Source of the DNA: Mesoflavibacter zeaxanthinifaciens DSM 18436
Lineage (GTDB): Bacteria > Bacteroidota > Bacteroidia > Flavobacteriales > Flavobacteriaceae
NCBI RefSeq assembly: GCF_000422365.1
Contig: NZ_AULQ01000001.1
Coordinates: 310,001-374,000 of the forward strand
Reading direction: 5' to 3'
DNA: 64,000 nucleotides
Shown: piece by piece, positions 31,310 through 45,011 of the stretch
Layout of the letters: each line of letters starts with the position of its first letter
How positions within the stretch are numbered: the stretch's first letter is position 1
Program-made: the position numbers and the translations under genes
The notes under the pieces: generated by a model
The model's input: the letters and a program-made list of their open reading frames with translations, nothing else
Database searches by the model: none
Told to the model about the DNA's origin: nothing

Positions 31310-32656
31310 ATGTCTGATGATTTTGACTTATTAGAAACTAACTCTCAAGAAAAAAACGAAAAAGTTGACGTTAATTGGGGAAAAGCAATTGACACCATGA
31401 AGTCTAAACTAGCACAAGAAGACGATCCTGAAAGTCGTCAAAAAATTCTTAACGCGACCTTAGATGATGTTGTTCACATGGCAGAAAAAGACCGTACAAC
31501 ACTTTTAGATGCAATTAAAGACTTAACCGATTATCAAGATGAAGTTGGGATACTTTTCGAGCGTTTTTCGTCTTTAAATGAAGACGAGCAAAAAGTTATC
31601 GACGATGCACAAAAAGCTTTAGAACGTGCTAAAATCGAACTTGAAGACGCAGAAAACAAACCAGATACGTGGTGGAATAACCTTTGGGGAAGAAAAAGCA
31701 AAATCAAAAAAGCCGAAGATACTTTAAAAGAAGCCGAAAAAACACGTGCAGCTGCAGATAATAAAGCAAAAGCAATGTTCCAAGAGCGTATAGAAAGTGC
31801 AGATGTGCAAACCTTGTTAAGCGAGTTATCTTACAAATCTCAAGCTGCAATTACACGATTAAAAAATCGTGAGGTAGAAATTAAAGAAGTAGAAGATAAG
31901 TTACAAGACGCTATAGTAGAAGCATCTAAAAACCATACAAAAGCGTTAGAGAAAAAAGCCGAAACCGAAGCTAAACTAGAAGAGCAATACGCATTATTAA
32001 AACAAGCGCGTCAAGCTTTAGAAGAAGTAGCAGATAAACAATCTACAGAATACTCAGAAGCGTTAGCTAAAGTCACAAAACTAGAGCAAAAAGTAGAAGA
32101 ATTAGAAGGTCTTAAAAACGCTTACACAACTTTAGCTGCATCAAAAGATAGCTTTGTTCACAAGCATAATTTAACGATTAAAGTTTTAACGTCTTTACGC
32201 AGTAATTTACAGACGCATCGTGCAAAATTAAAGTCAGATACAGACGAGCGTTTAAAGTATTACGATGGTTACGTTGTAGCGCTTAAAGCACGTACAGACC
32301 AAGAGTTTGCCTCTATTTTAGAGCATTTAGGAGTAAAAACAGACGAGCATATTGGAGAGACGTTAGCAGCAATGCACACAGCAAGTGCAAGAGCACGTCA
32401 AGAGATGATGGACAATATACCAGTACACGAAAAAGTAATGCAAGGTGTTTACAGTAGTTATGCAGAAGCGTTACAAGAAATCCGCGCAAAAGACGTAGAT
32501 ATTCAAAAGAATTTTGCCGAGCGTTATGGTATCGACATGAAAGAAATTTTTGAAGACTATTACAAAGCAGATGCTAATCAACCTACTGAAGATAATTCTG
32601 GAGGCGTTGGTAATGGTGCTCCAAAACAAGACACCGAAGACGATTTATTAGGTTAA
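31310..32656 (+). CDS. Long coiled-coil protein heading the AAA+ gene cluster
   Basis: A 448-aa soluble, highly charged protein dominated by predicted coiled coils (about residues 85-290), with an acidic disordered tail ending EDDLLG. A tryptophan-rich amphipathic stretch, DTWWNNLWGRKSK (119-131), stands out and might insert into membranes. The C-terminal third (about 290-410) is helical, with HKHNLTIKVLTSLRSNLQTH and DIQKNFAERYGIDMKEI. I do not recognise the family; a loose likeness to TelA or PspA-type membrane-associated helical proteins is only an impression. The next plus-strand genes follow after a 203-bp spacer with a dispersed repeat. I infer it works with the AAA+ ATPase downstream. 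Confidence 0.6.
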   Translation: MSDDFDLLETNSQEKNEKVDVNWGKAIDTMKSKLAQEDDPESRQKILNATLDDVVHMAEKDRTTLLDAIKDLTDYQDEVGILFERFSSLNEDEQKVIDDAQKALERAKIELEDAENKPDTWWNNLWGRKSKIKKAEDTLKEAEKTRAAADNKAKAMFQERIESADVQTLLSELSYKSQAAITRLKNREVEIKEVEDKLQDAIVEASKNHTKALEKKAETEAKLEEQYALLKQARQALEEVADKQSTEYSEALAKVTKLEQKVEELEGLKNAYTTLAASKDSFVHKHNLTIKVLTSLRSNLQTHRAKLKSDTDERLKYYDGYVVALKARTDQEFASILEHLGVKTDEHIGETLAAMHTASARARQEMMDNIPVHEKVMQGVYSSYAEALQEIRAKDVDIQKNFAERYGIDMKEIFEDYYKADANQPTEDNSGGVGNGAPKQDTEDDLLG

Positions 32657-32659
32657 AAT

Positions 32660-32830
32660 TGTCACTTCGAGTGATTTTGAGGAACGAGAAATTGTATCGA
32701 GAAGATGGGCGTTACCTACTTTTGCTTTTTATGGCAAAAGTAGGTCAGGCTTTCGGTAGTCGCAATCAAAGATGTGCTCCAACAATACCTCAATCCTTAA
32801 CGCATCACTTAGCCAAGTAAAAGTAAAACG
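32660..32830. repeat. Dispersed non-coding repeat element with 12-bp hairpin
   Basis: This stretch differs from the rest of the window in its GC-richer blocks (CACTTCGAGTGATTTTGAGG, GGGCGTTACC, GGTCAGGCTTTCGG). It holds a perfect 12-bp stem, ACCTACTTTTGC (32714-32725) and GCAAAAGTAGGT (32734-32745). Similar GGCGTTACC-hairpin-GGTC-GGCTTTC elements are, from memory, scattered through flavobacterial genomes. It fills most of the 203-bp gap between the coiled-coil gene and the first small ORF, and I see no ORF in it. Confidence 0.6.
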
Positions 32831-32859
32831 CAAAAGTTAGTCAATATTTACAGTGTAAA

Positions 32860-33036
32860 ATGGATAACTTCATTCAATTTATTAAAGACAACGGATTATC
32901 AATAATCATAGTCATTGTTGGTATTTTCATTATAAAAACAACAAGTTCAGACATTGGATTAATCATTGGTAGTGTTAATGTATTAGTCTTTGGCGGATTA
33001 ACATTAAAGGCACTGATTCAATATTTAAAAAAATAA
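32860..33036 (+). CDS. Small two-helix membrane protein
   Basis: A 58-aa ORF starting MDNFIQFIKDNGLSII and ending ALIQYLKK. It has two hydrophobic helices (about 13-26 and 31-48) linked by KTTSSD. I do not recognise a family. Support for a real gene: the stop (33034-33036) is followed directly by the ATG of the next small ORF, both lie on the strand of the cluster, and the hydrophobic pattern is regular. It may be a membrane component of the AAA+ cluster. Confidence 0.5.
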   Translation: MDNFIQFIKDNGLSIIIVIVGIFIIKTTSSDIGLIIGSVNVLVFGGLTLKALIQYLKK

Positions 33037-33216
33037 ATGAAAAAACAGAGTTATATTTTTTTAGGCATTTTAAGCTTAACTTTTATTTCAATTGTATGTA
33101 TTCATTTTAATAATGATCATAAAGAATGTTTTGATTTAAAAGAACAAAAGGTTTTACAAGACGGAACAGTAGTTAAAGTTGAAAAACATATTTGTAATGA
33201 AAAATATAACTTTTAA
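33037..33216 (+). CDS. Small exported or membrane-anchored protein
   Basis: A 59-aa ORF starting MKKQSYIFLGILSLTFISIV, a signal peptide or anchor, followed by a 35-residue part with three cysteines (at about 21, 31 and 53) and a lysine/glutamate-rich sequence. It starts on the base after the previous stop. No family is recognised. The Cys21 context (SIVCIH) is a poor lipobox, so a signal anchor is more likely. The next cluster gene begins 32 bp later. Confidence 0.5.
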   Translation: MKKQSYIFLGILSLTFISIVCIHFNNDHKECFDLKEQKVLQDGTVVKVEKHICNEKYNF

Positions 33217-33248
33217 GATTTGCTATTAAAAAAGCTAACAGCAAAAAC

Positions 33249-34313
33249 ATGTCAATACATCATATTACAACACCATTAGATTCGGCTATTTTAGATAGTA
33301 AAGCACAATATGTGTTTTATCATAAAAAAGTAGATTTTGCTCTTAAAGAATTGATTGTTGCAGTACAGCAAAACAATTTGTGTACACAACAAGAGATTGT
33401 GTTTTTTAAGCAATATGCAGATTTGTTGTTGTATTCTATCGAGGCTATGCGTATTAAATACATGTACGACGAGGAAGATAACATGAAAGTTGATGTAACG
33501 GATTCTGGATTTCCTAATTATTTAGAGTTTAGATATCTTTATAATGATTTATCATTACGTCATAATTACATTAATAAATTAAAAGATGTATCACAATTAC
33601 AGGAAGAGTTTTTAGACCAATTATTAAGGGTAAAAGAACCAGTCAGACGTGATAAATTATTTCAAGCAGCGTCAATAGTTTATTATACTTCTGTAGAGCA
33701 AAAATATATTTTCAACCGTTTTGTACAAGGTAAAATCATAAAAGCACCAGAAGGTAGTCAAGCAGAATATATGACCAGTTGGAGTTTTTATGACGTGTCC
33801 TTAAACAGACCATTTATTTGTTACATGTATTTTGATTACGATGGTAAAGATCCTTTAAAAGACAAAGAAGATATCTACGAGGTTTTAAACAAAGTAGCAG
33901 ATCGCCAAATGGATTTAGATACTATGGCTTATGGTATAGATAGACGTTTAAAACGTGTATTGCCAAAACATATTAAGCGGTTAGATGTTGGTGCATTTCA
34001 TAATGTATTTGCAAAAGACGAAAACGAATTAACACATACCATTTTAGAAGCAATAGCAAAAAAAGAAGTGCCTTTAGAAGCTTACGCGTTGTCTTTTAAA
34101 GTACATGAGGTTATGTCTGGAAGCACATTTCAAGAAGGCGGATTTTTTAATAAGCAAGTGTTGCAAAATTGGAGTCCAGTTATCAAAAAAAAATATGTCT
34201 TTGCGCCTCATAGAATCATACAGCTATTATACAACAAAAACCCTGAAATAATGAATAAACTGGCTAAACCGCCATTTCAAATTTCAGATTTAAAAATTGA
34301 AAAAATTAAATAA
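33249..34313 (+). CDS. Protein of unknown function, AAA+ cluster member
   Basis: A 354-aa soluble protein with no signal peptide or membrane helix. It is rich in aromatic and charged residues; notable stretches are YLEFRYLYNDLSLRHNYI, SFYDVSLNRPFICYMYFDYD and MAYGIDRRLKRVLPKHIKRL. The last part, PPFQISDLKIEKIK, is short and basic. I recognise no catalytic motif. It ends 2 bp before the AAA+ ATPase gene, so the pair is translationally close. A substrate adaptor or structural partner of the ATPase is the simplest inference. Base composition matches the neighbours. Confidence 0.6.
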   Translation: MSIHHITTPLDSAILDSKAQYVFYHKKVDFALKELIVAVQQNNLCTQQEIVFFKQYADLLLYSIEAMRIKYMYDEEDNMKVDVTDSGFPNYLEFRYLYNDLSLRHNYINKLKDVSQLQEEFLDQLLRVKEPVRRDKLFQAASIVYYTSVEQKYIFNRFVQGKIIKAPEGSQAEYMTSWSFYDVSLNRPFICYMYFDYDGKDPLKDKEDIYEVLNKVADRQMDLDTMAYGIDRRLKRVLPKHIKRLDVGAFHNVFAKDENELTHTILEAIAKKEVPLEAYALSFKVHEVMSGSTFQEGGFFNKQVLQNWSPVIKKKYVFAPHRIIQLLYNKNPEIMNKLAKPPFQISDLKIEKIK

Positions 34314-34315
34314 AA

Positions 34316-36274
34316 ATGGAACACAATTCCACATTTCCTATAAAAAAATCAGAACTAGATGTGTTACGTGATGAAGCGTCATCTTACTTAAAAAGTGTAA
34401 GTTGGGAGCAAGGCGCGCGTGCAAAAAACAGAGATAAAGATGCTAAAGACGAGTCTATTTTATTGTATCTATCTCGTGCTAATAATGGTTCTTCAGTTTC
34501 TGTAACATCAGTTTCAAAAACCATTTTAGCTCTAAAAAAGCGTTTGTTGCCAGATAGTATTGCAATTCCAATTCATCTAAACCAGACGTTATATGCCGTT
34601 CAAGAAGGTATTACTTTAGGAACGTGGATAAAAGATAGCTATTATGATGCATCGGGTTTATCAAGTTTAAACGAGCGTAAATCAGCATTAGATAGTAGTG
34701 GAAAACGCGAATACGAAAGCAAAATGCAAACCGCAACAGCGTTTATGTTATTTGCAACGTCTTATTATATTCTTCATCAAATAAAACCTTATGCGTCAGA
34801 CGATTTAAGTGTGATGAAACAGAAGTTTGCAGGTATTCCGGAAGTGTCTTTACTATCACCATTAAAAGGAATTTCGTGCACATTATTTTACTATGACAAA
34901 TATTTAGCGCATCCAGATATAATCAAATCTGATAAAGATGTAGCCGATTTTACAGCGGTATTTTTTGAAGCTGTAATAGACGAAATTAATTTAAGACGAA
35001 GCAGTTTAGAATACACCGAAACGATTGTAGATAGAACATACAAGTTAGAAAACAGTGATTTTGCTATTTCTGGTTGGGAAAACACGTTTCAAGGTACTGC
35101 AAAAAGTGTAGAGTTTAATAAAATTAAATTCGAGCAAATTGTAGGTAACAGAGATGCTAAACACTTTGCACGTCGTTTAACAGAAAGAATGCTAAGCTAC
35201 GATTTTGCAGCACAGAAAAATCCGTTTCAAGAATTAGGCGGATTCATGCCAGTCTTTATGGGTTACGGTATTCCTGGAACAGGAAAAAGTATGCTTATCG
35301 CTGCTATAGCAACACGTTTAAAAGAACATTGTGATAATTTAGATATTCCGTTTTTGTTTCATCCAATGCCAGATACTTTAATTAGTACATTTCAAGGTGG
35401 ATCTGCCGAAAAAATGGTAGACTGGATGAAACCTTTACAAGATCCAACAAAATTAATTTTTGCACCAATTGATGATGCCGAAAATAACTTGCAAGAGCGT
35501 ACAGCACAAGGTGTTTCGGCTGGTGTAAAAGAAGTTATTGGTGTCTTTTTACGTTATACAGAAGGTGCTTATGCAGTTAATTATGGGAATAGTTCTATTG
35601 GTTTGTTTACTAACTTACCAGAAATGTTGGATAAAGCCGTAATCTCTCGTGTACAAGGACGTTTTAAAATTGACGGAGCACGTACAGAACACGATTTTTT
35701 AGATCAAGATCATTTATGGTGGCGTAAGTTTGAAAAGACAATGCCAGACTTTGTAAACATGCAAAATCCTACAAATTATACTTATTTACAAGATCAAGGT
35801 TTGGCGAAAAATATGGGTGAAATTTTAAACGTATCTAACAAACCAACAGAACAACGTGTTTTAGAAGCTTATGATATTGCCGAAAAGCAACATAAAACAA
35901 CAGATCATTTGTTTTATGCTACGCTGTATAAAGAAATACAGAAGATATTTCCGTTTTTCTCTTCTAGAGATGTTAGGAATATACAAAGCGCAATTTCATT
36001 ACGTTTAACCGATTTTGATTTAGAAGAAAGCTGGTTTGAAAATCCAGAGATTTATTTCAAAAAAGATTACGATACCAAGTTTGCGATGCTTCAAGAATTA
36101 ATGAAAGCTAACATGAAAGGTTTAGATTTTTCTGAAATTAGACGACAAGAAGTTGTACGTTATTTAGATAATGTTGCAACCATTGCAGATACCGATTTTA
36201 AGCGTCAAGTAGAAGGTAGAGTTAATCAATTAAATATTGAAATGGAAGCTAGAAAGCAGTTTGATAAATCTTAA
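34316..36274 (+). CDS. Classic-clade AAA+ ATPase
   Basis: This 652-aa protein has an uncharacterised helical N-terminal region (1-260) and a single AAA+ module. It shows Walker A GIPGTGKS (318-325), Walker B LIFAPIDDAE (380-389), where the usual DE is DD followed by AE, and the sensor-1-like LFTNLPEMLDKAVISRVQGRF (430-450, with Asn433). The SR motif SRVQGR (444-449) supplies the Arg finger. This resembles the Vps4/Cdc48/FtsH branch, whose members pull on proteins or remodel membrane-bound polymers. No protease or membrane domain is fused. The C-terminal 150 residues are helical. It is the likely motor of the cluster and sits 2 bp after the 354-aa gene. Confidence 0.8.
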   Translation: MEHNSTFPIKKSELDVLRDEASSYLKSVSWEQGARAKNRDKDAKDESILLYLSRANNGSSVSVTSVSKTILALKKRLLPDSIAIPIHLNQTLYAVQEGITLGTWIKDSYYDASGLSSLNERKSALDSSGKREYESKMQTATAFMLFATSYYILHQIKPYASDDLSVMKQKFAGIPEVSLLSPLKGISCTLFYYDKYLAHPDIIKSDKDVADFTAVFFEAVIDEINLRRSSLEYTETIVDRTYKLENSDFAISGWENTFQGTAKSVEFNKIKFEQIVGNRDAKHFARRLTERMLSYDFAAQKNPFQELGGFMPVFMGYGIPGTGKSMLIAAIATRLKEHCDNLDIPFLFHPMPDTLISTFQGGSAEKMVDWMKPLQDPTKLIFAPIDDAENNLQERTAQGVSAGVKEVIGVFLRYTEGAYAVNYGNSSIGLFTNLPEMLDKAVISRVQGRFKIDGARTEHDFLDQDHLWWRKFEKTMPDFVNMQNPTNYTYLQDQGLAKNMGEILNVSNKPTEQRVLEAYDIAEKQHKTTDHLFYATLYKEIQKIFPFFSSRDVRNIQSAISLRLTDFDLEESWFENPEIYFKKDYDTKFAMLQELMKANMKGLDFSEIRRQEVVRYLDNVATIADTDFKRQVEGRVNQLNIEMEARKQFDKS

Positions 36275-36280
36275 TTAATC

Positions 36281-36925
36281 ATGGAAACAGCTAACATTGA
36301 AACTACAGAACAGAATGTAACTAAATATAGTATTCAAGACTATATGTCTATTGGATATTTATTTTTATTAGTTTTAGGTGTAGCCAATCAAGCTATATTT
36401 TATGGGTTGTTAGGTGTAAATATTTTTGAATACACATCGGTTTTAGATGTGTTATTAAGTCCGTTAGCTGTGATAAGTTCTCATTGGCTTATGCCTGTTG
36501 TATTAGCAGTACTTATACCATTAATGATTGGATACTTTAAACTTTTACAATGGTATTATGCAAAGCTTTCAAAAAAGGAAAAATACCAATCAGGAAAAAA
36601 GAAAGAGAAACTAGATAAGGTACTTAAAAGTTTAAATAAAAAGTATGCTGTAATTCCTTTTATTTTATTGATGCTAATTTGTATGTTTTTAGGTTTTGGA
36701 TTAGGCGGTGGATATAAAAGTAAAGAAAGGCTAGAAACACAAGATTACAAATACACACATCAAATTGTTTATGAAGATGGAGAAGTTAAAGATGTGAAAA
36801 TTTTAGGAAAAAATAGCTTGTATGTTTTTTATGCCACAAAGGATAATAATGAAGTTCAGATTTCACCAGTAGAAGGAAATATAAAAAACATTATAAAGTT
36901 AACTTCAAAAGACACAAAAGAATAA
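36281..36925 (+). CDS. Multi-pass membrane protein, AAA+ cluster member
   Basis: A 214-aa protein with about four hydrophobic segments (near residues 25-48, 56-68, 70-86 and 124-142). A strongly basic cytoplasmic loop (AKLSKKEKYQSGKKKEKLDK) lies between helices 3 and 4. After the last helix comes a small beta-rich domain of about 65 residues (HQIVYEDGEVKDVKILG). I recognise no family. It starts 6 bp after the ATPase gene and is probably the membrane anchor or substrate channel of the system; this is inference from position. Confidence 0.6.
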   Translation: METANIETTEQNVTKYSIQDYMSIGYLFLLVLGVANQAIFYGLLGVNIFEYTSVLDVLLSPLAVISSHWLMPVVLAVLIPLMIGYFKLLQWYYAKLSKKEKYQSGKKKEKLDKVLKSLNKKYAVIPFILLMLICMFLGFGLGGGYKSKERLETQDYKYTHQIVYEDGEVKDVKILGKNSLYVFYATKDNNEVQISPVEGNIKNIIKLTSKDTKE

Positions 36926-36956
36926 TTTGAAAAATTTTATTCAGATTTAGATCAAA

Positions 36957-38192
36957 ATGCAAAAACTAAAACAAGCCAATTTATATAGAAGTGAATTAAT
37001 TCCCGTTAGCGGAAAGTTAGTGGAGCGTTATAATAAATGCTTAGTTAAGCTTGGTTTTACGCCAACAAAATTAACTTCATTTTTTATTGATGGCGTTGGT
37101 TACAGTCCAGAAATAGCAGAAGAAAAAGGCTCGACGATGTACTTAAATAATGGTGAAGCAAATCCGCATGCCATTATCATTTCGCCTTTACAAAAGGGTA
37201 AACCTGTATATTCTCCATTTCATAGTTTTGATAAAGAAATGATGCAGCAAGTATTTAGAATTCATGGTGATAAAATAAATGATATTACTCGCGATAGTGC
37301 CATTTGCCTAGATTTTGATCAAAATATAGATGCGTTTTATGAGCCATTAGATGTTTTAAAATATGATAAAGTAAGTATCAACTTTCATCTAATAGATAAT
37401 TTAAATAAAGCTCAAAAAGAACAAGAGCGACTTATTGAAATTTTTAAAAAAGGCAATAATTTTATAGATGAAAGTATTCATGAGCAATTGTTAGAATCTG
37501 CTAAAACATATGGAGACTTACGTCATAGAGATTTAACTTTACACAGTCTTCAGCATCAGTCAGAATCTTTTTACACCAAAGCTTTTGGTGGTGTTTATGT
37601 ACTAAGAGATTTTATATCTCCAATCGTGGTTTTTGAAGATTTAAAATGGTATAAAGAAGCTATAAAAGATACCATACACGATGTGTTGATTTATCATATT
37701 AATCAACCAGAGTTAATGGAAAAATTGCGAGATCATATTATTGTAGAATATGATTTAGAAGCTGCGTTAAATACAGATCGATACCAACGTATTAAAAAAA
37801 TGGAATTTGCAATGTCTTTAAAAGAGACACAACATCCAATACAGCAAATACTTAATGATAATGTGTTATTTAAAAGTTATTTAAATAAATTGGATATTGA
37901 TACAAGAAAAAAGATTATGGGTGTAGAAATATACCTTGAAAAATTAGAAGTTAGTAATCAATACAAAATACACGATTTGGTAGATATAGGTATTTTTAAT
38001 GCATTACATACACCACACTCTTCATTACATGTTTCTCAACAAGATTTAATATGGAAGTTATTAATCAATATTTCATCAAGAGATGTTTTATTTTTGTTTT
38101 GGTATGATAAAGATGAATTTTACAAACAATACGCTACTTGGGATGAATCTTTTCAAGATTGGGTTGTAGAAACTATATTAAAAAATATATAA
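36957..38192 (+). CDS. Protein of unknown function (possibly DUF6638-like), AAA+ cluster member
   Basis: A 411-aa soluble protein. N-terminal LYRSELIPVSGKLVERYNKC and DGVGYSPEIAEEKG, a central segment LESAKTYGDLRHRDLTLHSL, and VYVLRDFISPIVVFED characterise it. I have a faint memory of a flavobacterial DUF6638 family like this but cannot confirm it. No catalytic motif is clear; a few His/Arg-Asp clusters could be functional. It lies 31 bp after the membrane protein gene and ends just before a terminator, so it closes the first transcription unit of the cluster. Confidence 0.55.
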   Translation: MQKLKQANLYRSELIPVSGKLVERYNKCLVKLGFTPTKLTSFFIDGVGYSPEIAEEKGSTMYLNNGEANPHAIIISPLQKGKPVYSPFHSFDKEMMQQVFRIHGDKINDITRDSAICLDFDQNIDAFYEPLDVLKYDKVSINFHLIDNLNKAQKEQERLIEIFKKGNNFIDESIHEQLLESAKTYGDLRHRDLTLHSLQHQSESFYTKAFGGVYVLRDFISPIVVFEDLKWYKEAIKDTIHDVLIYHINQPELMEKLRDHIIVEYDLEAALNTDRYQRIKKMEFAMSLKETQHPIQQILNDNVLFKSYLNKLDIDTRKKIMGVEIYLEKLEVSNQYKIHDLVDIGIFNALHTPHSSLHVSQQDLIWKLLINISSRDVLFLFWYDKDEFYKQYATWDESFQDWVVETILKNI

Positions 38193-38222
38193 AAAAACAG
38201 GTCGTTTAGACCTGTTTTTTTG
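38193..38222. terminator. Terminator closing the first part of the AAA+ cluster
   Basis: A 9-bp perfect stem, AAACAGGTC (38195-38203) and GACCTGTTT (38209-38217), has a 5-nt loop and is flanked by A and T runs. It starts directly after the stop codon and also suits the convergent protease gene. Confidence 0.88.
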
Positions 38223-38241
38223 TTTCATTAAGATTATTAAT

Positions 38242-41040
38242 CTATTTTTTTATAAACTTTTCTAAAGATTTTAAACCGTTAGAGTTAATCTCTAAAAAGT
38301 ACATTCCTTGTGATAAATTAGTAATATTTATTTGATAATTAAGCGTATTATTTTCAAGAGATATTGTACTTATTAATCTTCCATTTATATCGTAAATGGT
38401 TAATTTTTCAATATTTGTGTTAGACGAAATATTTAAAATGTTTAACGCAGGATTTGGATAAACTTTATAGTTTTTAATCTCAAACTCTTCATTAGATAGA
38501 GCAGCTGCAGGAGCAAAGCTATATATTCCATCAATACCTGTAAAGTCTCCGGTTAAGGTTACTCCGCCATTATAACTACCAATAGTAGCCATAACGTTTT
38601 CAACAGTGCCAGAAGTACTTTCTCTATTAATAACTAAGTCGTTTCTTGTATAGGTGCCAGCAACAGCAGTTTCCCAACCAGCAACTTCAGCTTCGGTAAA
38701 ATAAAAAGTAATAGTATTATTTCCTGATTGAGTCGCTTGTGTAGCAGTAACTTCAAATTGCTTATCCATTGCTAATAATGGAGCTGTACTACCATTAATT
38801 GGTTGTCCGGCAGTTCCATCTCTATAAACACTTACATTTACACAGTCGTAATTAAAATTATCATTGTTTTCTAAACTAGCAATAATGTTACCATTACTAG
38901 AGTCGTAAGCATAAACTAATCCAGAACTAGCTAAAGGTACAATTGCATTTGTTGTTCCGTTATTAACACTAGTTTGTATGTTTGCATTACCTTGGCTAGT
39001 TACAGTAAAATTATCAATAGCTAAACCATAAGCCCAATTTCCTAAATCATTATATAAGAAAGAAATTAATACGTTAGATTGTCCAGCATAAGCAGAAAGG
39101 TCTACATCTACATTGGTCCATTCTGAATAAGAAATAAGTTCTGGTCCTACATTTTGCCAAGTTAAACCATTATCTGTAGATGCTTGTATAAAACTATCTG
39201 AAGCATATTGATCATTACTATCTGTATAAATAATATCAAAATTTAAATTAGCTGTACTGTAAGTAGAAAAATCAAATGGAGTAGTGTACATTAAGCGTTC
39301 TTGATTCATGTTACAATTACAAGCATCATCATTAACATAAGCAAAGTTAGTTGAGTTACCAACTGTACTCCAAGAGCTAGATGAAGATGATGCTGCATCT
39401 CCTATTGAGAAAGTAGGAAAACCATTTCCTGTAACAGTCCAATTTGTTAATCCAGATTCAAAATCATCCGAAGCTAAAGTTACATTACTACCTATTGAAG
39501 GAGCATAATCATCGTCAGTTATAGTAAAAGTTTTTGTATCTATAGTACCTAATTGAGCGTCACCACCATTTGCATTTAAAGATAGGTTTAAAGAAAAGGT
39601 TTCATCACCTTCAATAAAAGCATCATTATATACTCTAACAGTAAAAGTTTGATCTGTATCATCTCCTGCTAAAAATGTTATAGGATTAGGTGTTATAACT
39701 TCAAAATCTTCAAGGTTTGTAGCCGTTTCATTAATGATATTAACCGTAACATCTGCATTGTTAGATGCAGGCATAGCAATTCTTAAATTAAAATCTATAT
39801 CTTGATAATCGCAACCAGTAGCTTCATTTACAGTAGAAGTAGCACTAGAAAAAGTTACGTAAGGTGCTTCAGGGTTAGGGTCATCAACTCCACAGTTAGG
39901 CATATTAGCACCTATTGCAGCAATTAAATTATCGCTTCTTCCGTAAGAACCATTTGGGCAACCACCAGTATTATGGATTGCAACTACTAAATGATCAGAA
40001 TAGCGTATTACTGGAGACCCAGAACTACCACCTTCTGTATCACATTGGTATTCTACACGATTAGGAAAATCTCCTTGGTTTGTAATCATAGCAAATCCGT
40101 TTGCATCGCCACCAACATCTGTATTTACAGCAATTTCTTTTCTTCTTCCTGCTGGATGTTGAGGTATATAAATTCTTTCTCCTACAGGTGCTATTGTAGA
40201 TGATAAGCTTAAGTATCCATAAGTAGAAGTTGGGTTAACTGGTAGCATAACAAGCGTAAAGTCTAAGTTTGCGTCTGTTTGAATAAAAGTAGAAGATGTA
40301 GCTACTAGGTCTTGTAAAGCAAAAGTTGTTTCGGCACAATCAGCATATTTATAATTAAATAAAAATTCTGTATTTAATGCGTCAGTTGAGTTTTCGATAC
40401 AATGGTTATTGGTCATTAAGTTTCCGTCACAACCTAATAACCAACCTGTACATAATCCACTACCACCAATAAGTAGTCTACATACAGCTTCAGATTTTCT
40501 ACCCATTTCTGTACCATCGTAGCAAACAATAGCTTCTTTATCATCAAAACTACATACAGTTTCTGTGTCTTGAGGTGTCAAAATTTCAAAAGCACTACTT
40601 ATTTTATCAACACTATACCCATAGGCTACAGTATCAATATCAAATCCGTAATGGTTATTATTTCCGTTTTGACTGTATAATTCAACAATTATATGATCGC
40701 TCCATATAGTTGTAGACCAAAAAGTATCAATCATTTGGTCTTCATTACCAATTAATTTACCTTGGTTATAATAGAAAAACTCTTCAGAAGTTTTTGGGCT
40801 ATATACCTTTACATAATCTCCAGAGTTTAAATCAAAATTCTTAAAATGTACTTTTACATAGCCAGAACCAGTAGATCTAAATTCTTTTTGAAAAACTATA
40901 CCTGTTTGATTATTAGAGTAATATGGGTTTGAGGATATGTCTACACTATATTCATCCCCAATTTTTAAACGACCACTATTGTCTTGAGCAATTATTATAT
41001 TAAAACAAAAAAGAAATAAAAAGAGAAGTTTTAGTTTCAT
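38242..41040 (-). CDS. Secreted trypsin-like (Lys-C-like) serine protease with T9SS type A sorting domain
   Basis: The 932-aa protein has a signal peptide (1-19), a beta-rich N-terminal prodomain (20-165) and a chymotrypsin-fold catalytic domain. His213 lies in TNNHC, Asp260 in NLDFTLV and Ser340 in GGSSGSP, like lysyl endopeptidases. Next come a Calx-beta-like domain (about 390-510), a MAM/jelly-roll-like domain (about 520-690), another beta domain, and the C-terminal T9SS type A signal (YPNPALNILNIS to EKFIKK). It should cross the outer membrane by type IX secretion and be released or anchored there. It is on the opposite strand, splitting the AAA+ cluster, and has its own promoter region. 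Confidence 0.88.
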   Translation of the reverse strand: MKLKLLFLFLFCFNIIIAQDNSGRLKIGDEYSVDISSNPYYSNNQTGIVFQKEFRSTGSGYVKVHFKNFDLNSGDYVKVYSPKTSEEFFYYNQGKLIGNEDQMIDTFWSTTIWSDHIIVELYSQNGNNNHYGFDIDTVAYGYSVDKISSAFEILTPQDTETVCSFDDKEAIVCYDGTEMGRKSEAVCRLLIGGSGLCTGWLLGCDGNLMTNNHCIENSTDALNTEFLFNYKYADCAETTFALQDLVATSSTFIQTDANLDFTLVMLPVNPTSTYGYLSLSSTIAPVGERIYIPQHPAGRRKEIAVNTDVGGDANGFAMITNQGDFPNRVEYQCDTEGGSSGSPVIRYSDHLVVAIHNTGGCPNGSYGRSDNLIAAIGANMPNCGVDDPNPEAPYVTFSSATSTVNEATGCDYQDIDFNLRIAMPASNNADVTVNIINETATNLEDFEVITPNPITFLAGDDTDQTFTVRVYNDAFIEGDETFSLNLSLNANGGDAQLGTIDTKTFTITDDDYAPSIGSNVTLASDDFESGLTNWTVTGNGFPTFSIGDAASSSSSSWSTVGNSTNFAYVNDDACNCNMNQERLMYTTPFDFSTYSTANLNFDIIYTDSNDQYASDSFIQASTDNGLTWQNVGPELISYSEWTNVDVDLSAYAGQSNVLISFLYNDLGNWAYGLAIDNFTVTSQGNANIQTSVNNGTTNAIVPLASSGLVYAYDSSNGNIIASLENNDNFNYDCVNVSVYRDGTAGQPINGSTAPLLAMDKQFEVTATQATQSGNNTITFYFTEAEVAGWETAVAGTYTRNDLVINRESTSGTVENVMATIGSYNGGVTLTGDFTGIDGIYSFAPAAALSNEEFEIKNYKVYPNPALNILNISSNTNIEKLTIYDINGRLISTISLENNTLNYQINITNLSQGMYFLEINSNGLKSLEKFIKK

Positions 41041-41198
41041 TAGTTAATTAGTTAAGGGTTACAAAGTTGTAAATATATACGAAAAAAATTAATTATGGTT
41101 TATATAATTAATTAACTAATTAAAAGAATATATCTCAAAAAAAATACTTGTTTACCTGTAACTATTGCTATAAATTTACTACAAATAAATAAAAAGGA

Positions 41199-41723
41199 AT
41201 GACACTAGAACTTATCATATTTGTAGCCTCAATTTTATTCGGAATTTTATTGTATTGGAGAGAATCTAAAAGCAATAAAGTCTATCGGTTTTTTAATAAA
41301 CTAATGTATTCTAAAGAGTTACAAATGAAATCTGATAGTAAAAAAGGATTCATTTTTCAACAAAATTTTCTGCTTAGGTTAGTTTATATAACAGTTTTGT
41401 TTTTAGTAACAATAGTAGTTGTTCAATTTATTTTACCAATTTCAGTTTCATTAGTACAATGGTTTGTGTCTGCAATTGTAGGTACATTAATTGGTACGTA
41501 TCTAGCTAATTTTATACTTAAATCTAGCGATGTTATTGGTGAAAAAAGTGAATCTTTTGAAGACGTTTTAAACGAAAGTATAAACAAAGGAAAAGAGTTT
41601 ATAGACGACTTAAAAACCAAAGACACTAAAGTTGTAGAAGAAGCTAAAAAAGAAATAAAAGAAGAGCCTAAAAAAGAAGAAAAAAGTGCACGCCAACGTC
41701 TTAAAGACAAAGGATTAATGTAG
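41199..41723 (+). CDS. Membrane protein with charged cytoplasmic tail
   Basis: A 174-aa protein with an N-terminal helix (2-20) and two closely spaced helices (about 58-78 and 86-106, the latter Gly/Thr-rich SAIVGTLIGTYLANFIL). A 65-residue tail very rich in Lys and Glu follows (VEEAKKEIKEEPKKEEKSAR), ending RQRLKDKGLM. No family is recognised. It is followed after 37 bp by another membrane protein, and both resume the strand of the AAA+ cluster beyond the protease gene. I infer membership of that cluster, but the 158-bp gap upstream shows they have a separate promoter. Confidence 0.5.
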   Translation: MTLELIIFVASILFGILLYWRESKSNKVYRFFNKLMYSKELQMKSDSKKGFIFQQNFLLRLVYITVLFLVTIVVVQFILPISVSLVQWFVSAIVGTLIGTYLANFILKSSDVIGEKSESFEDVLNESINKGKEFIDDLKTKDTKVVEEAKKEIKEEPKKEEKSARQRLKDKGLM

Positions 41724-41760
41724 TAGCTTTAAGCTTTTTTTAAATTAGAATACAATATTT

Positions 41761-43521
41761 ATGATAAAAAATTACTGGAATAAAGGCAGAAAACAAAAAA
41801 CAATAGTCATAATAATAAGCTTGGTAGTAGTAGGTCTTTTATTCTTTTTAAGAGACGATTATCAACCTGCATTATTGTTTTTTAGAAAATATATCTTCAT
41901 AATAATATTAAGTGCAATTGTTTTATTTTTTGGGTTAAAAAAATTCCGAAACTCACCATCAACAGGAACACGTTTAGGTATTCTAGGTATTTTGGTAGCT
42001 TTTTTTGGATTGCTTTACGTGTTAGGTTGGCACTTAAAACTTTATGATTATATGAAAACATATAATGTTTTTAATAATTTAAATAGAGTTGAAATTAACG
42101 AATTACCTCTTACACAAAACGAACGTATACAACCATTACGTAACATTTTTTCTATGGCTAACGAAAGTGTTGGCGAAACCAAAGATGTTTCCTTACCGCA
42201 TTTAGTTAGAGTAGATGGCGAAAATAAATGGACTATGGCAATTCAGCCAACCGAAAAGTACGTATGGCAAGGAATAAGTGATAATACAGAAGAAGTGTTT
42301 GCAGTACCAAGCACAACTCCATTTCCTCGTTTTTCTAATGAAAACCGAATTCCAGTAACATTCTCAATAGGAGAATCTTTAAAATTTAGTCGAAACACAT
42401 ACAACGCAGTAGTACAACGCTTTAATCCTTGGATGTTATTCAATTACGAGCCAAGCGACACCTATTATATGAAAAATGATAAAGGTGATTGGGTTGAAGT
42501 TGTTAGTTTAATTAAATGGAAAGGTTTTTTCTTTCCGTATCCAACCTTTGGTGGTGTTATGATTATTGAAAATGGAGAACATGATTTTAATGATTATTTA
42601 GAACGAATGGTTATTGGTAAAGGCACATTTATAGCTCCAGACCAAATGAAAAACTATCCATTTTTAACACGTCAAAATACCTTGGCAGAAAAAGTATCAC
42701 GTTTACAAGCAGAATCTTTAAAGTTTCTTGGCGGATTTAGTGATCCATTACCATGGAATATGGAAACTGCTGTAAAAATTCCTGTTTTACCAGACGATCA
42801 AAACCAGCAACCTTTTGTTACCGATTTTGATTTTTCAGAAGCTAATAAAGATGCATATAGTGGTTTATATCATTGGTTTGGTTTAGAACCAGTAGGCGAT
42901 GAGCGTACCAGTTTAACTTACAGTGTTTTTGTGCCTGCAGATGGCACAGAAAAGCTATTTTACTACGATCATGCTAGTAAAAAACAAGGTTATGCAGGTG
43001 TTTCTGCTATGCCTTTAAAAGTGATAGAATCTAGAAAAGAATACGATTGGTCTGTTAATAAACCAGTAGAGTTTAGACCATATATAAAAGAAATAGCTGG
43101 TAAAAAACGTATGTTTTTTCTAGGTACTATTTCTTCAATTAAAAAGGATAATGCGCAGTTTGATGGTTCTGCAACACCAGATTTAGCATTAATTGATAGC
43201 GAATATCGTGATGTAGTTTGGATTGATGCAAAACATCCTAGTCAATGGAATAAAATAGTTTATGATCAGTTAAATGAAGCTTGGCGTGCTAGTGAAGGTA
43301 TTGGTAACTTTTTTCAAGAAGATAATACTATGTTAGATGCTATAAGTGGAATGGAAGACAAAGTAATTGAAATAGATTCCACATTAACTAATTCTACAAA
43401 CAAAGACTTGACCGTTGAAGAATTAAAAGCACAAATTGATTCAATAAAAAATGCCAGAAAACAAAGTGAAGTAGAACGTTTACAACGCGAATTAGACTCA
43501 TTAAAAGCTTTAGAAAACTAA
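41761..43521 (+). CDS. Three-helix membrane protein with large exported domain, unknown function
   Basis: A 586-aa protein with three N-terminal helices (about 14-32, 38-58 and 70-92). A large domain of about 430 residues follows (VRVDGENKWTMAIQPTEKYV, FNPWMLFNYEPSDTYYMKN, WKGFFFPYPTFGGVMI), and a C-terminal coiled coil of about 50 residues (TVEELKAQIDSIKNARKQ) ends it. The pattern of tryptophans and repeated Gly-Gly suggests a beta-rich fold. I do not recognise it. With odd helix number and N-terminus inside, the domain would be periplasmic. It probably partners the preceding membrane protein. Its stop overlaps the convergent regulator gene by 4 bp. Confidence 0.5.
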   Translation: MIKNYWNKGRKQKTIVIIISLVVVGLLFFLRDDYQPALLFFRKYIFIIILSAIVLFFGLKKFRNSPSTGTRLGILGILVAFFGLLYVLGWHLKLYDYMKTYNVFNNLNRVEINELPLTQNERIQPLRNIFSMANESVGETKDVSLPHLVRVDGENKWTMAIQPTEKYVWQGISDNTEEVFAVPSTTPFPRFSNENRIPVTFSIGESLKFSRNTYNAVVQRFNPWMLFNYEPSDTYYMKNDKGDWVEVVSLIKWKGFFFPYPTFGGVMIIENGEHDFNDYLERMVIGKGTFIAPDQMKNYPFLTRQNTLAEKVSRLQAESLKFLGGFSDPLPWNMETAVKIPVLPDDQNQQPFVTDFDFSEANKDAYSGLYHWFGLEPVGDERTSLTYSVFVPADGTEKLFYYDHASKKQGYAGVSAMPLKVIESRKEYDWSVNKPVEFRPYIKEIAGKKRMFFLGTISSIKKDNAQFDGSATPDLALIDSEYRDVVWIDAKHPSQWNKIVYDQLNEAWRASEGIGNFFQEDNTMLDAISGMEDKVIEIDSTLTNSTNKDLTVEELKAQIDSIKNARKQSEVERLQRELDSLKALEN

Positions 43522-44993
43522 CTAAATTGTTTAAAAATATCGTTTACAACGGTTTCAATTTTTAGGTTTTTTTGTTCTTTTTCTAAGATTTTAGCTGGTA
43601 CCATTCGCTCTTTACAATCTTTGATCGCACAACGCTCGCAAGTAACACCAACATTAAAGGTTTCAATTTTTTTGTCCTCTAAAAAGTTAAGCTTTCTTTT
43701 TAATTGTTGGTTAATTAATAATCCTATACTAACGCTTCTATATTGATCGGTTTTAAACGGATCTTTTGTTGCAGAAGACAATACTAAATATGATTGGTTA
43801 CTATCTGGATAATTAGAGATTTGTAAATTAAACACATGTTTATCGTTTGTATTTACAATGTCTTTTAACACCTTTAAAGACATCCAACGTCTGCAATAAT
43901 GCTCGTTTGTTTCGTTAGCATGAGGCGAATGTTGATGTGATAAATGCAGCTCTTTGGTTAAGTAAAAGTTTGGACTATTTTTTTTATGAATAAAACGTAA
44001 GAAAAATAAATTCTGAATATTAAAATCTTTAGGTAATATATTGGTTAAACGCTGATAAAAAGATTCTGGAGAAGCGTTAAACGATTGTGCAATTTGCACA
44101 AATTGCTTTTCGTCAAAGGTTTTTTTCTTAAATAGTTTTTCGACTTGATTAGTAAGTAATTCCTGCGGTAAAATTAACGAACCAGCAAAATAAGACGCGT
44201 AAAAATTATTTAATACTTGATCAAAATTCTCGAATTTAATCCAGGAAAATGTATATAATCGTTCTTTATAATTCAAATAATTATACGCAATTTCTTTAGC
44301 ATAAATAAACGTACGTTGGGCTTCATCTATATGATTAGCCACTAACAACGTTTTTGTTTTAGGTATAAAAATAGATCTTAAATTATCTAATTCTTTATAA
44401 TTTTCTAATTCTTTATTATTAATAGTGTAGCCATATTCTTCAACTAAAATTTCTTCTAATTCTAAAGATGAAATATTAGCTTTTAAATCTAATTGATAAG
44501 CTTCTGCAAACTTAATTACGCTTTGCTCTAAAGCTTCAAAATAGTTATTATTTGCTTCTTGAAAAGAACGTACAGACGCCAAATAAAAACTTTCTTTACT
44601 AAAGCTGTAATGTTGTGCTATTTCTATAATAGTACTGATAAAAGCATTGACTTTATCTGGTGCATTTGCAACAATATCTATCAAGTCGCTTTCTTTTATA
44701 CCAAATAATTCTAACGGAATTTCCTTTAAAATCTTTGACTTTAAGATATCACCAATTGGCGCTAAATTTTTATCCAATTTTAAGGATACAAATTGATCGT
44801 AAGGCACATCTAATTTTTCAGATAATATTGCAATCTTATCAGGTTTAGGATATTTTTTTCCTTTTTCAATTTCGTTTAAATACGATTTTGACAACCCAGA
44901 TAATTTAGATAATCCAAATAGGGATAAATTCCTGTCAGATCTTATCTGCTTTAGCTTTAAGCCAAAAATTAACTTAATATAATCTTCTTCCAT
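43518..44993 (-). CDS. XRE/ImmA-IrrE-type regulator of acetate or short-chain acyl metabolism (RamB/ScfR-like)
   Basis: A 491-aa regulator with an N-terminal Xre helix-turn-helix (about 7-65, LSLFGLSKLSGLSKSYLNE), a central region related to ImmA/IrrE, and a C-terminal domain. The C-terminal domain contains NEHYCRRW and ends with the Cys cluster CERCAIKDCKERMVP. The ImmA/IrrE zinc motif HExxH is replaced by KEIAY (in RTFIYAKEIAYNYL), so peptidase activity is unlikely. This architecture matches RamB and ScfR regulators of aceA/aceB and propionate genes, and the gene is divergent from aceB. Start at ATG 44993; the upstream TTG at 45011 is inside the promoter region. Confidence 0.85.
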   Translation of the reverse strand: MEEDYIKLIFGLKLKQIRSDRNLSLFGLSKLSGLSKSYLNEIEKGKKYPKPDKIAILSEKLDVPYDQFVSLKLDKNLAPIGDILKSKILKEIPLELFGIKESDLIDIVANAPDKVNAFISTIIEIAQHYSFSKESFYLASVRSFQEANNNYFEALEQSVIKFAEAYQLDLKANISSLELEEILVEEYGYTINNKELENYKELDNLRSIFIPKTKTLLVANHIDEAQRTFIYAKEIAYNYLNYKERLYTFSWIKFENFDQVLNNFYASYFAGSLILPQELLTNQVEKLFKKKTFDEKQFVQIAQSFNASPESFYQRLTNILPKDFNIQNLFFLRFIHKKNSPNFYLTKELHLSHQHSPHANETNEHYCRRWMSLKVLKDIVNTNDKHVFNLQISNYPDSNQSYLVLSSATKDPFKTDQYRSVSIGLLINQQLKRKLNFLEDKKIETFNVGVTCERCAIKDCKERMVPAKILEKEQKNLKIETVVNDIFKQFS

Positions 44994-45011
44994 AATAGCA
45001 AATATAATCAA

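Follow-up and report, generated by a model that had tools for sequence, protein, structure and literature searches.

We analysed a 64,000-nucleotide stretch of the genome of Mesoflavibacter zeaxanthinifaciens DSM 18436 (Bacteroidota, Flavobacteriaceae; contig NZ_AULQ01000001.1, positions 310,001 to 374,000, forward strand), hereafter the window, whose source genome comprises 2.97 Mb in 21 contigs. Between positions 31310 and 43521 of the window lies a set of genes around an AAA+ ATPase, in which an original prediction, made from the letters and their open reading frames (ORFs), had seen a candidate undescribed membrane-associated system. The ORF sizes and positions that it gave agree with the ORF list of the window. 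Six of the genes recur together in other Bacteroidota; they are listed below with window coordinates and protein lengths in amino acids (aa).

31310..32656, + strand: CC448, 448 aa, modelled as all-helix, core gene 1
33249..34313, + strand: U354, 354-aa soluble protein, core gene 2
34316..36274, + strand: AAA, 652-aa classic-clade AAA+ ATPase by sequence, core gene 3
36957..38192, + strand: D6638, 411-aa DUF6638 protein (PF20343), core gene 4
41199..41723, + strand: TM174, 174-aa membrane protein, core gene 5 (Bacteroidota loci)
41761..43521, + strand: U586, 586-aa membrane protein, core gene 6 (Bacteroidota loci)

A conserved gene unit in Bacteroidota

The CC448-AAA set is a real conserved gene unit and not a chance arrangement. 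The 259 family genomes were searched twice, separately with an AAA alignment and with a CC448 alignment (E up to 1e-10), and a script comparison found identical sets of 76 genomes, with neither gene in the other 183. Both genes lie on one contig in 74 of these 76, their starts at most 4,539 bases apart; in the other two (G813 and G967) they are on separate contigs, and the assemblies are fragmented. In a class-wide sample, 8 of 295 genomes had the AAA gene; DUF6638 was found in 7 of 291, all seven being within those eight. The eighth genome (G331) carries DUF6638 by direct comparison (locus L041), and was therefore either outside the DUF6638 sample or missed there.

All six genes stand on one strand in 98 of 105 AAA-bearing loci, or in 97 of 104 distinct loci because two of them (L019 and L072) share one AAA sequence and are probably one genome. 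The original prediction had proposed co-occurrence in other genomes as the check on its grouping, and the 76 shared genomes and 98 complete loci bear it out. Among the seven loci that fall short of the full six, three are cut by contig ends (L052, L088 and L137), L073 has all but a recognised TM174, and L026 has the first four genes, with other genes at the expected place of TM174 and U586. The genome of L035 (G310, contig C5; loci L035, L149 and L150) has DUF6638 about 9 kb farther on, on the same strand and with other genes between, and L142, from the same genus, has only the first three genes within the stretch fetched. U354 was found in 104 of the 105 loci. Pairwise protein distances of the six core genes correlate at 0.92-0.98; the calculation covered 95 of the 105 loci, or 59 when an upstream ABC-F gene was included, those without a long enough gene copy being excluded. 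This ABC-F gene precedes the set in 53 of the 74 named loci that have at least 4 kb of upstream sequence. The alignments described below use a diverse subset of loci.

Several neighbouring genes in the window are closely spaced, with gaps of 2 bases between U354 and AAA, 6 between AAA and TM214, 31 between TM214 and DUF6638, and 37 between TM174 and U586. The following further genes lie between the core genes, the positions between two core genes being called slots.

32860..33036, + strand: S58, 58-aa ORF with two hydrophobic segments (hydropathy), accessory; in a cluster of 3 slot ORFs
33037..33216, + strand: S59, 59-aa ORF with one hydrophobic segment (hydropathy), accessory; in a cluster of 9 ORFs, CC448-U354 slot
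36281..36925, + strand: TM214, 214-aa membrane protein, accessory; in a cluster of 7 ORFs, AAA-D6638 slot
38242..41040, - strand: trypsin-like gene, 932 aa, divergent, between DUF6638 and TM174

Same-strand ORFs of at least 45 aa between core genes number 194 in the 105 loci and fall into 48 clusters, shorter or opposite-strand ORFs being excluded from the clustering. The 58-aa, 59-aa and 214-aa genes of the window belong to clusters of only 3, 9 and 7 ORFs. The original gene list, taken as one system, therefore holds for the conserved core, whereas the 214-aa gene and both tiny ORFs count as accessory. What it called a four-helix membrane protein is TM214, which has four hydrophobic segments at a relaxed threshold and three at a stricter one. 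Its divergent gene is present in the window, where family matches make the 932-aa product a secreted trypsin-like protease with a type IX secretion tail, but is missing from a locus of the same genus (L018). Since TM174 directly follows DUF6638 there, a recent insertion is the simplest explanation of the opposing gene.

The biggest slot cluster is a Nudix hydrolase in the AAA-DUF6638 slot (65 ORFs; the single member scanned gave a Pfam E of 1.3e-13). It is present in many Flavobacteriaceae loci (for example L019:4238-4825), not in the window, and may be a frequent accessory enzyme. Genes resembling 23S rRNA intervening-sequence proteins (a cluster of 30 ORFs in two different slots; Pfam, one member) and GIY-YIG-like genes (a cluster of 9 ORFs, one member confirmed by Pfam) also recur inside the operon, examples of such inserts being L022:12286-12642 and L086:12667-12966. 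A promoter scan with a Bacteroidota-type pattern gave 2 matches where 8.1 were expected, neither at a cassette start. At 43518-45011 (- strand) of the window, a regulator of the helix-turn-helix, M78-peptidase, ScfRs type stands beside a gene taken as malate synthase; it is probably part of the glyoxylate genes and not of the AAA+ set.

Reach across bacteria

In samples that include the window genome, AAA was present at full length in 11 of 40 relatives, with weak matches to the ATPase domain only in 5 further genomes, and in 5 of 395 genomes in addition to the 8 of 295 and 76 of 259 given above; samples without the window genome gave 7 of 108 and 2 of 9 genomes with the AAA gene. The genome scan used the best 80 of 342 relatives, and the titles of these 80 name Flavobacteriaceae genera or unclassified Bacteroidia. 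Other families of the same class carry the system at 42-46% AAA identity, their assignment to Bacteroidia being taken from the titles of the best relatives. No relatives of the AAA+ set were found in the viral contigs or phages searched.

The system extends beyond Bacteroidota. A translated search of plasmid records, through which the Proteobacteria were sampled, found AAA relatives in 10 of 72,556 records at about 27% identity over 78-88% of the length (four Vibrio, four Sinorhizobium, one Shinella and one Rhizobium). Six of the ten were fetched, two from Vibrio and four rhizobial, and all six have the order CC-U354-AAA-DUF6638 on one strand. Profile E values in these records were 1.3e-10 to 5.3e-16 for the CC gene, 2.5e-32 to 1.5e-41 for U354, 1.1e-70 to 3e-90 for AAA and 3.9e-34 to 5.8e-65 for DUF6638. 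Two Sinorhizobium records have an extra small ORF between AAA and DUF6638, annotated in L190 as an endonuclease-domain protein, and L190 has an insertion element there too.

A profile search for TM174 and U586 gave no match in the six Vibrio and rhizobial loci. Directly after DUF6638, three of the four rhizobial records (L190, L194 and L191) have a DUF2333 gene with two hydrophobic segments; DUF2333 was found neither in L192 nor in the two Vibrio loci, and had no match among 2216 ORFs of the 105 Bacteroidota loci. Because the gene order is kept and TM174 and U586 are unmatched, we regard the four-gene set as the core and the membrane genes as varying by clade or missing nearby.

On the two Vibrio megaplasmids, which are about 0.9 Mb, an annotated mfd gene directly follows the four-gene core (L189:15130-18591 and L193:11295-14756). 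L190 is a 3.7-Mb S. meliloti record labelled pSymB that contains anthranilate synthase and choline uptake genes, which we take to be chromosomal genes of S. meliloti; the label may be wrong, or replicons may have been fused. The S. meliloti core genes may be SMc02729-02734, and a ChvI-bound fragment has been listed within SMc02733; this tentative mapping enters none of the conclusions here.

Motor and partner proteins

By its sequence, AAA is a classic-clade AAA+ motor, as the original prediction had it. The window protein matches Pfam AAA (PF00004) with 35.4 bits, above the curated cut-off of 21.2, and proteobacterial homologues score 50.1 and 41.8 bits. A cross-phylum AAA profile matched a VCP-like ATPase best (8.4e-11), followed by CDC48, RPT4, AFG2, Vps4, Pch2, Pex6 and katanin, and the AAA domain of the window alone matched the same classic-clade families at E 2.8e-4 and weaker; a profile from Bacteroidota alone gave nothing at E up to 0.001. 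Motifs were counted in 112 members, of which 106 are from Bacteroidota (window included) and 6 from Proteobacteria. All 112 have, in the same order, Walker A, the pore loop, an IDD Walker B, a sensor-1 F[TS]N, two arginines four apart and F[ST][SG]R. The main motifs of the window protein are as follows.

35267..35290, + strand: Walker A, residues 318-325 GIPGTGKS; G.PGTGK[ST] in 112/112
35384..35398, + strand: pore loop 1, residues 357-361 STFQG, after Walker A; S-x-[FY]-Q-G in 112/112
35459..35476, + strand: Walker B, residues 382-387 FAPIDD; IDD in 112/112, IDE in 0/112
35645..35662, + strand: second-region-of-homology arginines, residues 444-449 SRVQGR; R445 and R449 invariant in 11 cross-phylum members
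35957..35968, + strand: sensor-2-like FSSR, residues 548-551; F[ST][SG]R in 112/112, in order

The Walker A and second-region-of-homology motifs lie where the original prediction had placed them: the 12 aligned members all keep G318-S325, apart from an I or K at residue 319, and none of the 12 varies at S444, R445 or R449. The role of residues 357-361 as pore loop 1 is presumed from their position and general knowledge of AAA+ proteins. The second acidic residue of Walker B is the catalytic glutamate, and AAA departs from the canonical form (hhhhDE) by having Asp-Asp where Asp-Glu is usual. An aspartate at this position could slow hydrolysis because the position normally holds the catalytic glutamate, and the invariant Asp-Asp suggests slow or switch-like ATP hydrolysis. 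The N-terminal region of AAA, about 260 aa, matched no Pfam family, and the window protein has no hydrophobic segment by hydropathy and no peptidase domain match in Pfam.

The AlphaFold2 model of CC448 is helical, with a mean predicted local distance difference test score (pLDDT) of 68, a predicted template modelling score (pTM) of 0.46, and low confidence at residues 1-20, 329-392 and 412-448. Three short conserved features stand out.

31322..31333, + strand: FDLL motif, CC448 residues 5-8; in 103/103 full-length Bacteroidota members
31664..31696, + strand: hydrophobic hairpin tip, CC448 residues 119-129 DTWWNNLWGRK, between predicted helices 91-115 and 128-163
32639..32650, + strand: DDLL peptide at the CC448 C-terminus, after the low-confidence tail; [DNE][DN][LMI][LM] in 102/103 Bacteroidota members

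In the alignment across phyla, F5 and D6 of the FDLL motif are nearly invariant, and the two leucines are not kept in Proteobacteria. W121, W122 and W126, the tryptophans named in the original prediction, fall within the tip, in the stretch from residue 121. W122, N123, L125, G127 and K129 are invariant in 18 members, and G127 also in the four aligned proteobacterial CC members, whose shorter turn reads by eye as hydrophobic and then basic.

The original prediction had held its grouping to be at risk if CC448 and the ATPase belonged to well-known unrelated families; CC448 matched no known family. At E up to 0.1 the window protein matched nothing in Pfam, and among the 18 members the matches were scattered and weak, the best at E 0.004 (CofC, in 5 of the 18). 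Profile matches in the PDB were weak as well, to stretches of resolvases and keratins (best E 0.009 and 0.006). For the model, Foldseek put F-BAR domains and a component of an alpha-pore-forming toxin at the head of its list (E 0.012-0.018), and VIA listed alpha-pore-forming proteins and bundles of the syntaxin and MukEF types (Z 11.8-12.6), all within long-helix noise. In VIA, a Z below about 13 between helical bundles may reflect a common arrangement only, so no fold relative is claimed for CC448. No ESCRT-III or PspA entries were among the best 50 matches listed for this model by Foldseek or VIA.

The two soluble partners are unrelated to each other by direct comparison. U354 of the window had no Pfam match, with weak ones (best E 0.022) in at most 4 of 18 members, and its comparison with PDB profiles gave nothing below E 0.47. 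The 411-aa protein belongs to DUF6638 (PF20343; E 2.8e-34, 119.2 bits against a cut-off of 27), a family itself of unknown function. Family and profile searches recognised no enzyme family in U354, DUF6638 or U586.

Of 98 TM174 members, 75 have three hydrophobic segments, 21 have two and 2 have four. In the three-segment members, lysines plus arginines average 9.52 in loop 1 and after the third segment together vs 0.16 elsewhere, and the charged C-terminal tail is probably cytoplasmic. The window protein matches NF047333 weakly (22.8 of 90 bits). U586 has three N-terminal hydrophobic segments in 98 of 99 members, with a mean of 8.95 lysines plus arginines inside vs 2.74 outside; its N-terminus is probably inside and its large domain periplasmic. 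The model of this domain (window 42037-43302) has a pLDDT of 83 and a pTM of 0.87, the five models ranging in pLDDT from 60 to 83. Its best Foldseek match is an inulosucrase at E 7.2e-4 but with a template modelling score (TM-score) of only 0.22, and VIA gave at most Z 4.7. On this model, the domain may be a new or degenerate fold with no clear match among solved structures. Many of the structures that it matched are beta-propellers, and a degenerate propeller is possible, which we do not claim. The weak family match of U586 is to DUF4199, in 4 of 15 members (best E 2.8e-4).

Possible function and known systems

We tentatively read the set as a dedicated inner-membrane AAA+ machine that remodels a helical assembly, to which we give somewhat less than an even chance. 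A machine at the inner membrane is suggested because a threading-type motor, a tipped helical protein, two soluble proteins and, in the Bacteroidota loci, a pair of membrane proteins are constantly found together. AAA would form a hexameric ring whose aromatic pore loop grips a partner, which the ring would pull on or remodel. Conserved AAA+ motors normally act on a definite client, and in this set the most likely one would be CC448, whose conserved and probably flexible ends could serve as a handle in Bacteroidota. CC448 would touch the inner membrane with the conserved, hydrophobic tip of its hairpin. The cytosolic adaptors would be U354 and DUF6638, and TM174 with its cytoplasmic tail and U586 with its periplasmic domain would tether the machine and connect it to the envelope. 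In analogy to Vps4 and ESCRT-III, the machine would probably build and dismantle a helical membrane-bound structure, although sequence comparison detects no shared descent of the helical part with ESCRT-III. A fuller version of this proposal, which we consider rather doubtful as a whole, is that of an unnamed and widespread AAA+ machine whose IDD ring cycles a tip-inserting helical protein; it would be an independent counterpart of ESCRT-III/Vps4, with a link to the periplasm in Bacteroidota through a domain of possibly new fold.

Several observations weigh against the remodelling machine, which is proposed here from genes, sequences and models. The CC448 model, of moderate confidence, is no closer to one helical bundle than to many others. 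The six proteobacterial CC members lack the C-terminal DDLL peptide, which therefore cannot be a universal handle. The two Vibrio loci have no same-direction membrane gene directly beside the core and the rhizobial record L192 showed no DUF2333, so a membrane role is not certain for the core. The Asp-Asp Walker B could mean weak hydrolysis. In the 59 loci with an ABC-F neighbour, distances correlate at 0.55-0.77 between core genes and at 0.28-0.72 between core genes and ABC-F, highest for AAA; AAA thus matches ABC-F (0.72) as well as it matches the other core genes, and the test is only mildly favourable.

Four other explanations were weighed. A chaperone role like that of RavA or CbbQ, in which AAA would mature or activate an enzyme or an envelope complex built from U354 and DUF6638, with CC448 as scaffold and not client, would fit two soluble, conserved and mutually unrelated proteins, a Vibrio core with no adjoining membrane genes, and the Nudix hydrolase in the AAA-DUF6638 slot of many loci (one of its 65 ORFs being Pfam-confirmed). 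We consider it unlikely, since no enzyme family appears in U354, DUF6638 or U586, apart from the weak DUF4199 match (2.8e-4, 4 of 15 members), and since the AAA profile matches classic-clade AAA proteins, whereas RavA and CbbQ are MoxR-type. A quality-control extractor of membrane proteins, acting like Msp1 or FtsH under the guidance of TM174 and U586, is less probable still. Its AAA domain would be of the right kind, being close to FtsH, VCP and Vps4, and the membrane partners would offer a cytoplasmic tail and a periplasmic domain; but the window AAA has neither a hydrophobic anchor of its own nor a protease domain match, and CC448 is left unexplained although it was found wherever AAA was.

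The patchy presence (76 of 259, 7 of 108 and 2 of 9 genomes) recalls a defence or conflict system against phages or plasmids, as do a weak hit of the AAA domain to IetA in PADLOC (22.5 bits), the GIY-YIG genes in slots (a cluster of 9, one by Pfam) and toxin-antitoxin-like pairs in slots, judged by eye only. We hold this explanation to be improbable: many loci share a chromosomal neighbour (ABC-F, in 53 of the 74 named loci whose upstream sequence reaches 4 kb or more), the viral contigs and phages searched held no relatives, and the core has no recognised nuclease, protease or pore-type effector. The least probable explanation, for which we see very little chance, is a true homologue of the PspA/ESCRT-III plus Vps4 pair. 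The predicted helix layout of CC448 does not resemble the ESCRT-III hairpin, no PspA_IM30 or Snf7 match was found in 18 members, the hhalign probability with PspA is about 2%, and AAA has no MIT match. A helical protein does stand beside a classic AAA, and bacterial PspA or Snf7 homologues with classic AAA+ partners have been reported in a 2024 survey of PSP systems (PMC11237479).

The original prediction had recognised no named system, and the set is likewise not described in the literature searched, which was largely without subscription papers; DUF6638 is not named in it. A likeness to TelA, which the original prediction had named for checking and which the similar size and the sequence style of CC448 suggested, found no support in sequence: a search of the window genome for PF05816 gave nothing at E up to 1, and five TelA proteins from same-class genomes had hhalign probabilities of 0.1-0.2% with CC448. 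IetAS was considered through the weak PADLOC match, but the NCBIfam IetA model gives 14.7 against 510 bits, no IetS match was found among the cassette proteins, and the conserved set has no protease partner, the trypsin-like gene of the window being an insertion. FtsH differs from AAA, which has neither a zinc protease domain match nor a membrane anchor. DUF2333 (PF10095), which the available part of the literature mentions as an uncharacterised gene of an hcp locus, is the two-segment gene after DUF6638 in three of the four rhizobial records, in the place that TM174 and U586 take in Bacteroidota.

The nearest comparison in bacteria is with the PspA/Snf7 operons of the 2024 survey, which in its available part mentions other neighbourhoods in Bacteroidetes where PspA and Snf7 occur with a coiled-coil protein, as well as a further AAA+ protein fused to coiled coils (PMC11237479). 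Alike are the genes for a helical and a classic AAA+ protein side by side and the presence of membrane proteins; unlike are CC448, with no PspA or Snf7 homology, and AAA, with no MIT match. That part of the survey describes neither counterparts of U354 and DUF6638 nor the CC448-AAA set. PspA was rejected for CC448 at the sequence level, with no Pfam match to PspA_IM30 or Snf7 in the 18 members at E up to 0.1 and hhalign probabilities of 1.8-2.1% against seven PspA proteins; Snf7 was compared by Pfam only. The likeness to ESCRT and PspA sets seen in the original prediction therefore holds for the classic AAA+, the modelled helical protein and the membrane proteins, and does not extend, at the level of sequence, to homology with PspA, Snf7, MIT or the Vps4 C-terminal domain.

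Vps4 and CdvC share with AAA the classic-clade AAA+ domain, the aromatic pore loop and the arginine fingers. They differ in the N-terminal region, which in AAA is about 260 aa with no MIT, in the Vps4 C-terminal domain (neither domain was matched in Pfam by the window protein at E up to 1) and in the Asp-Asp Walker B; AAA matches the CdvC model only weakly and in part (15.5 of 650 bits). Since the sequence membership tests fail, we do not file the set under ESCRT-III/Vps4.

In summary, we found no characterised relative for five of the six core proteins, and yet the four-gene core stays together in two phyla. The motor belongs to a known clade. Because likely clients and adaptors are encoded alongside, the motor's job is directly testable in culturable bacteria, and the invariant replacement of the catalytic glutamate is an oddity that can be tested in its own right. 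By analogy, it is possible that the CC448-AAA pair works like ESCRT/Vps4; if CC448 is indeed a membrane-bound polymer recycled by the motor, the set would be an independent solution to the ESCRT-III/Vps4 problem.

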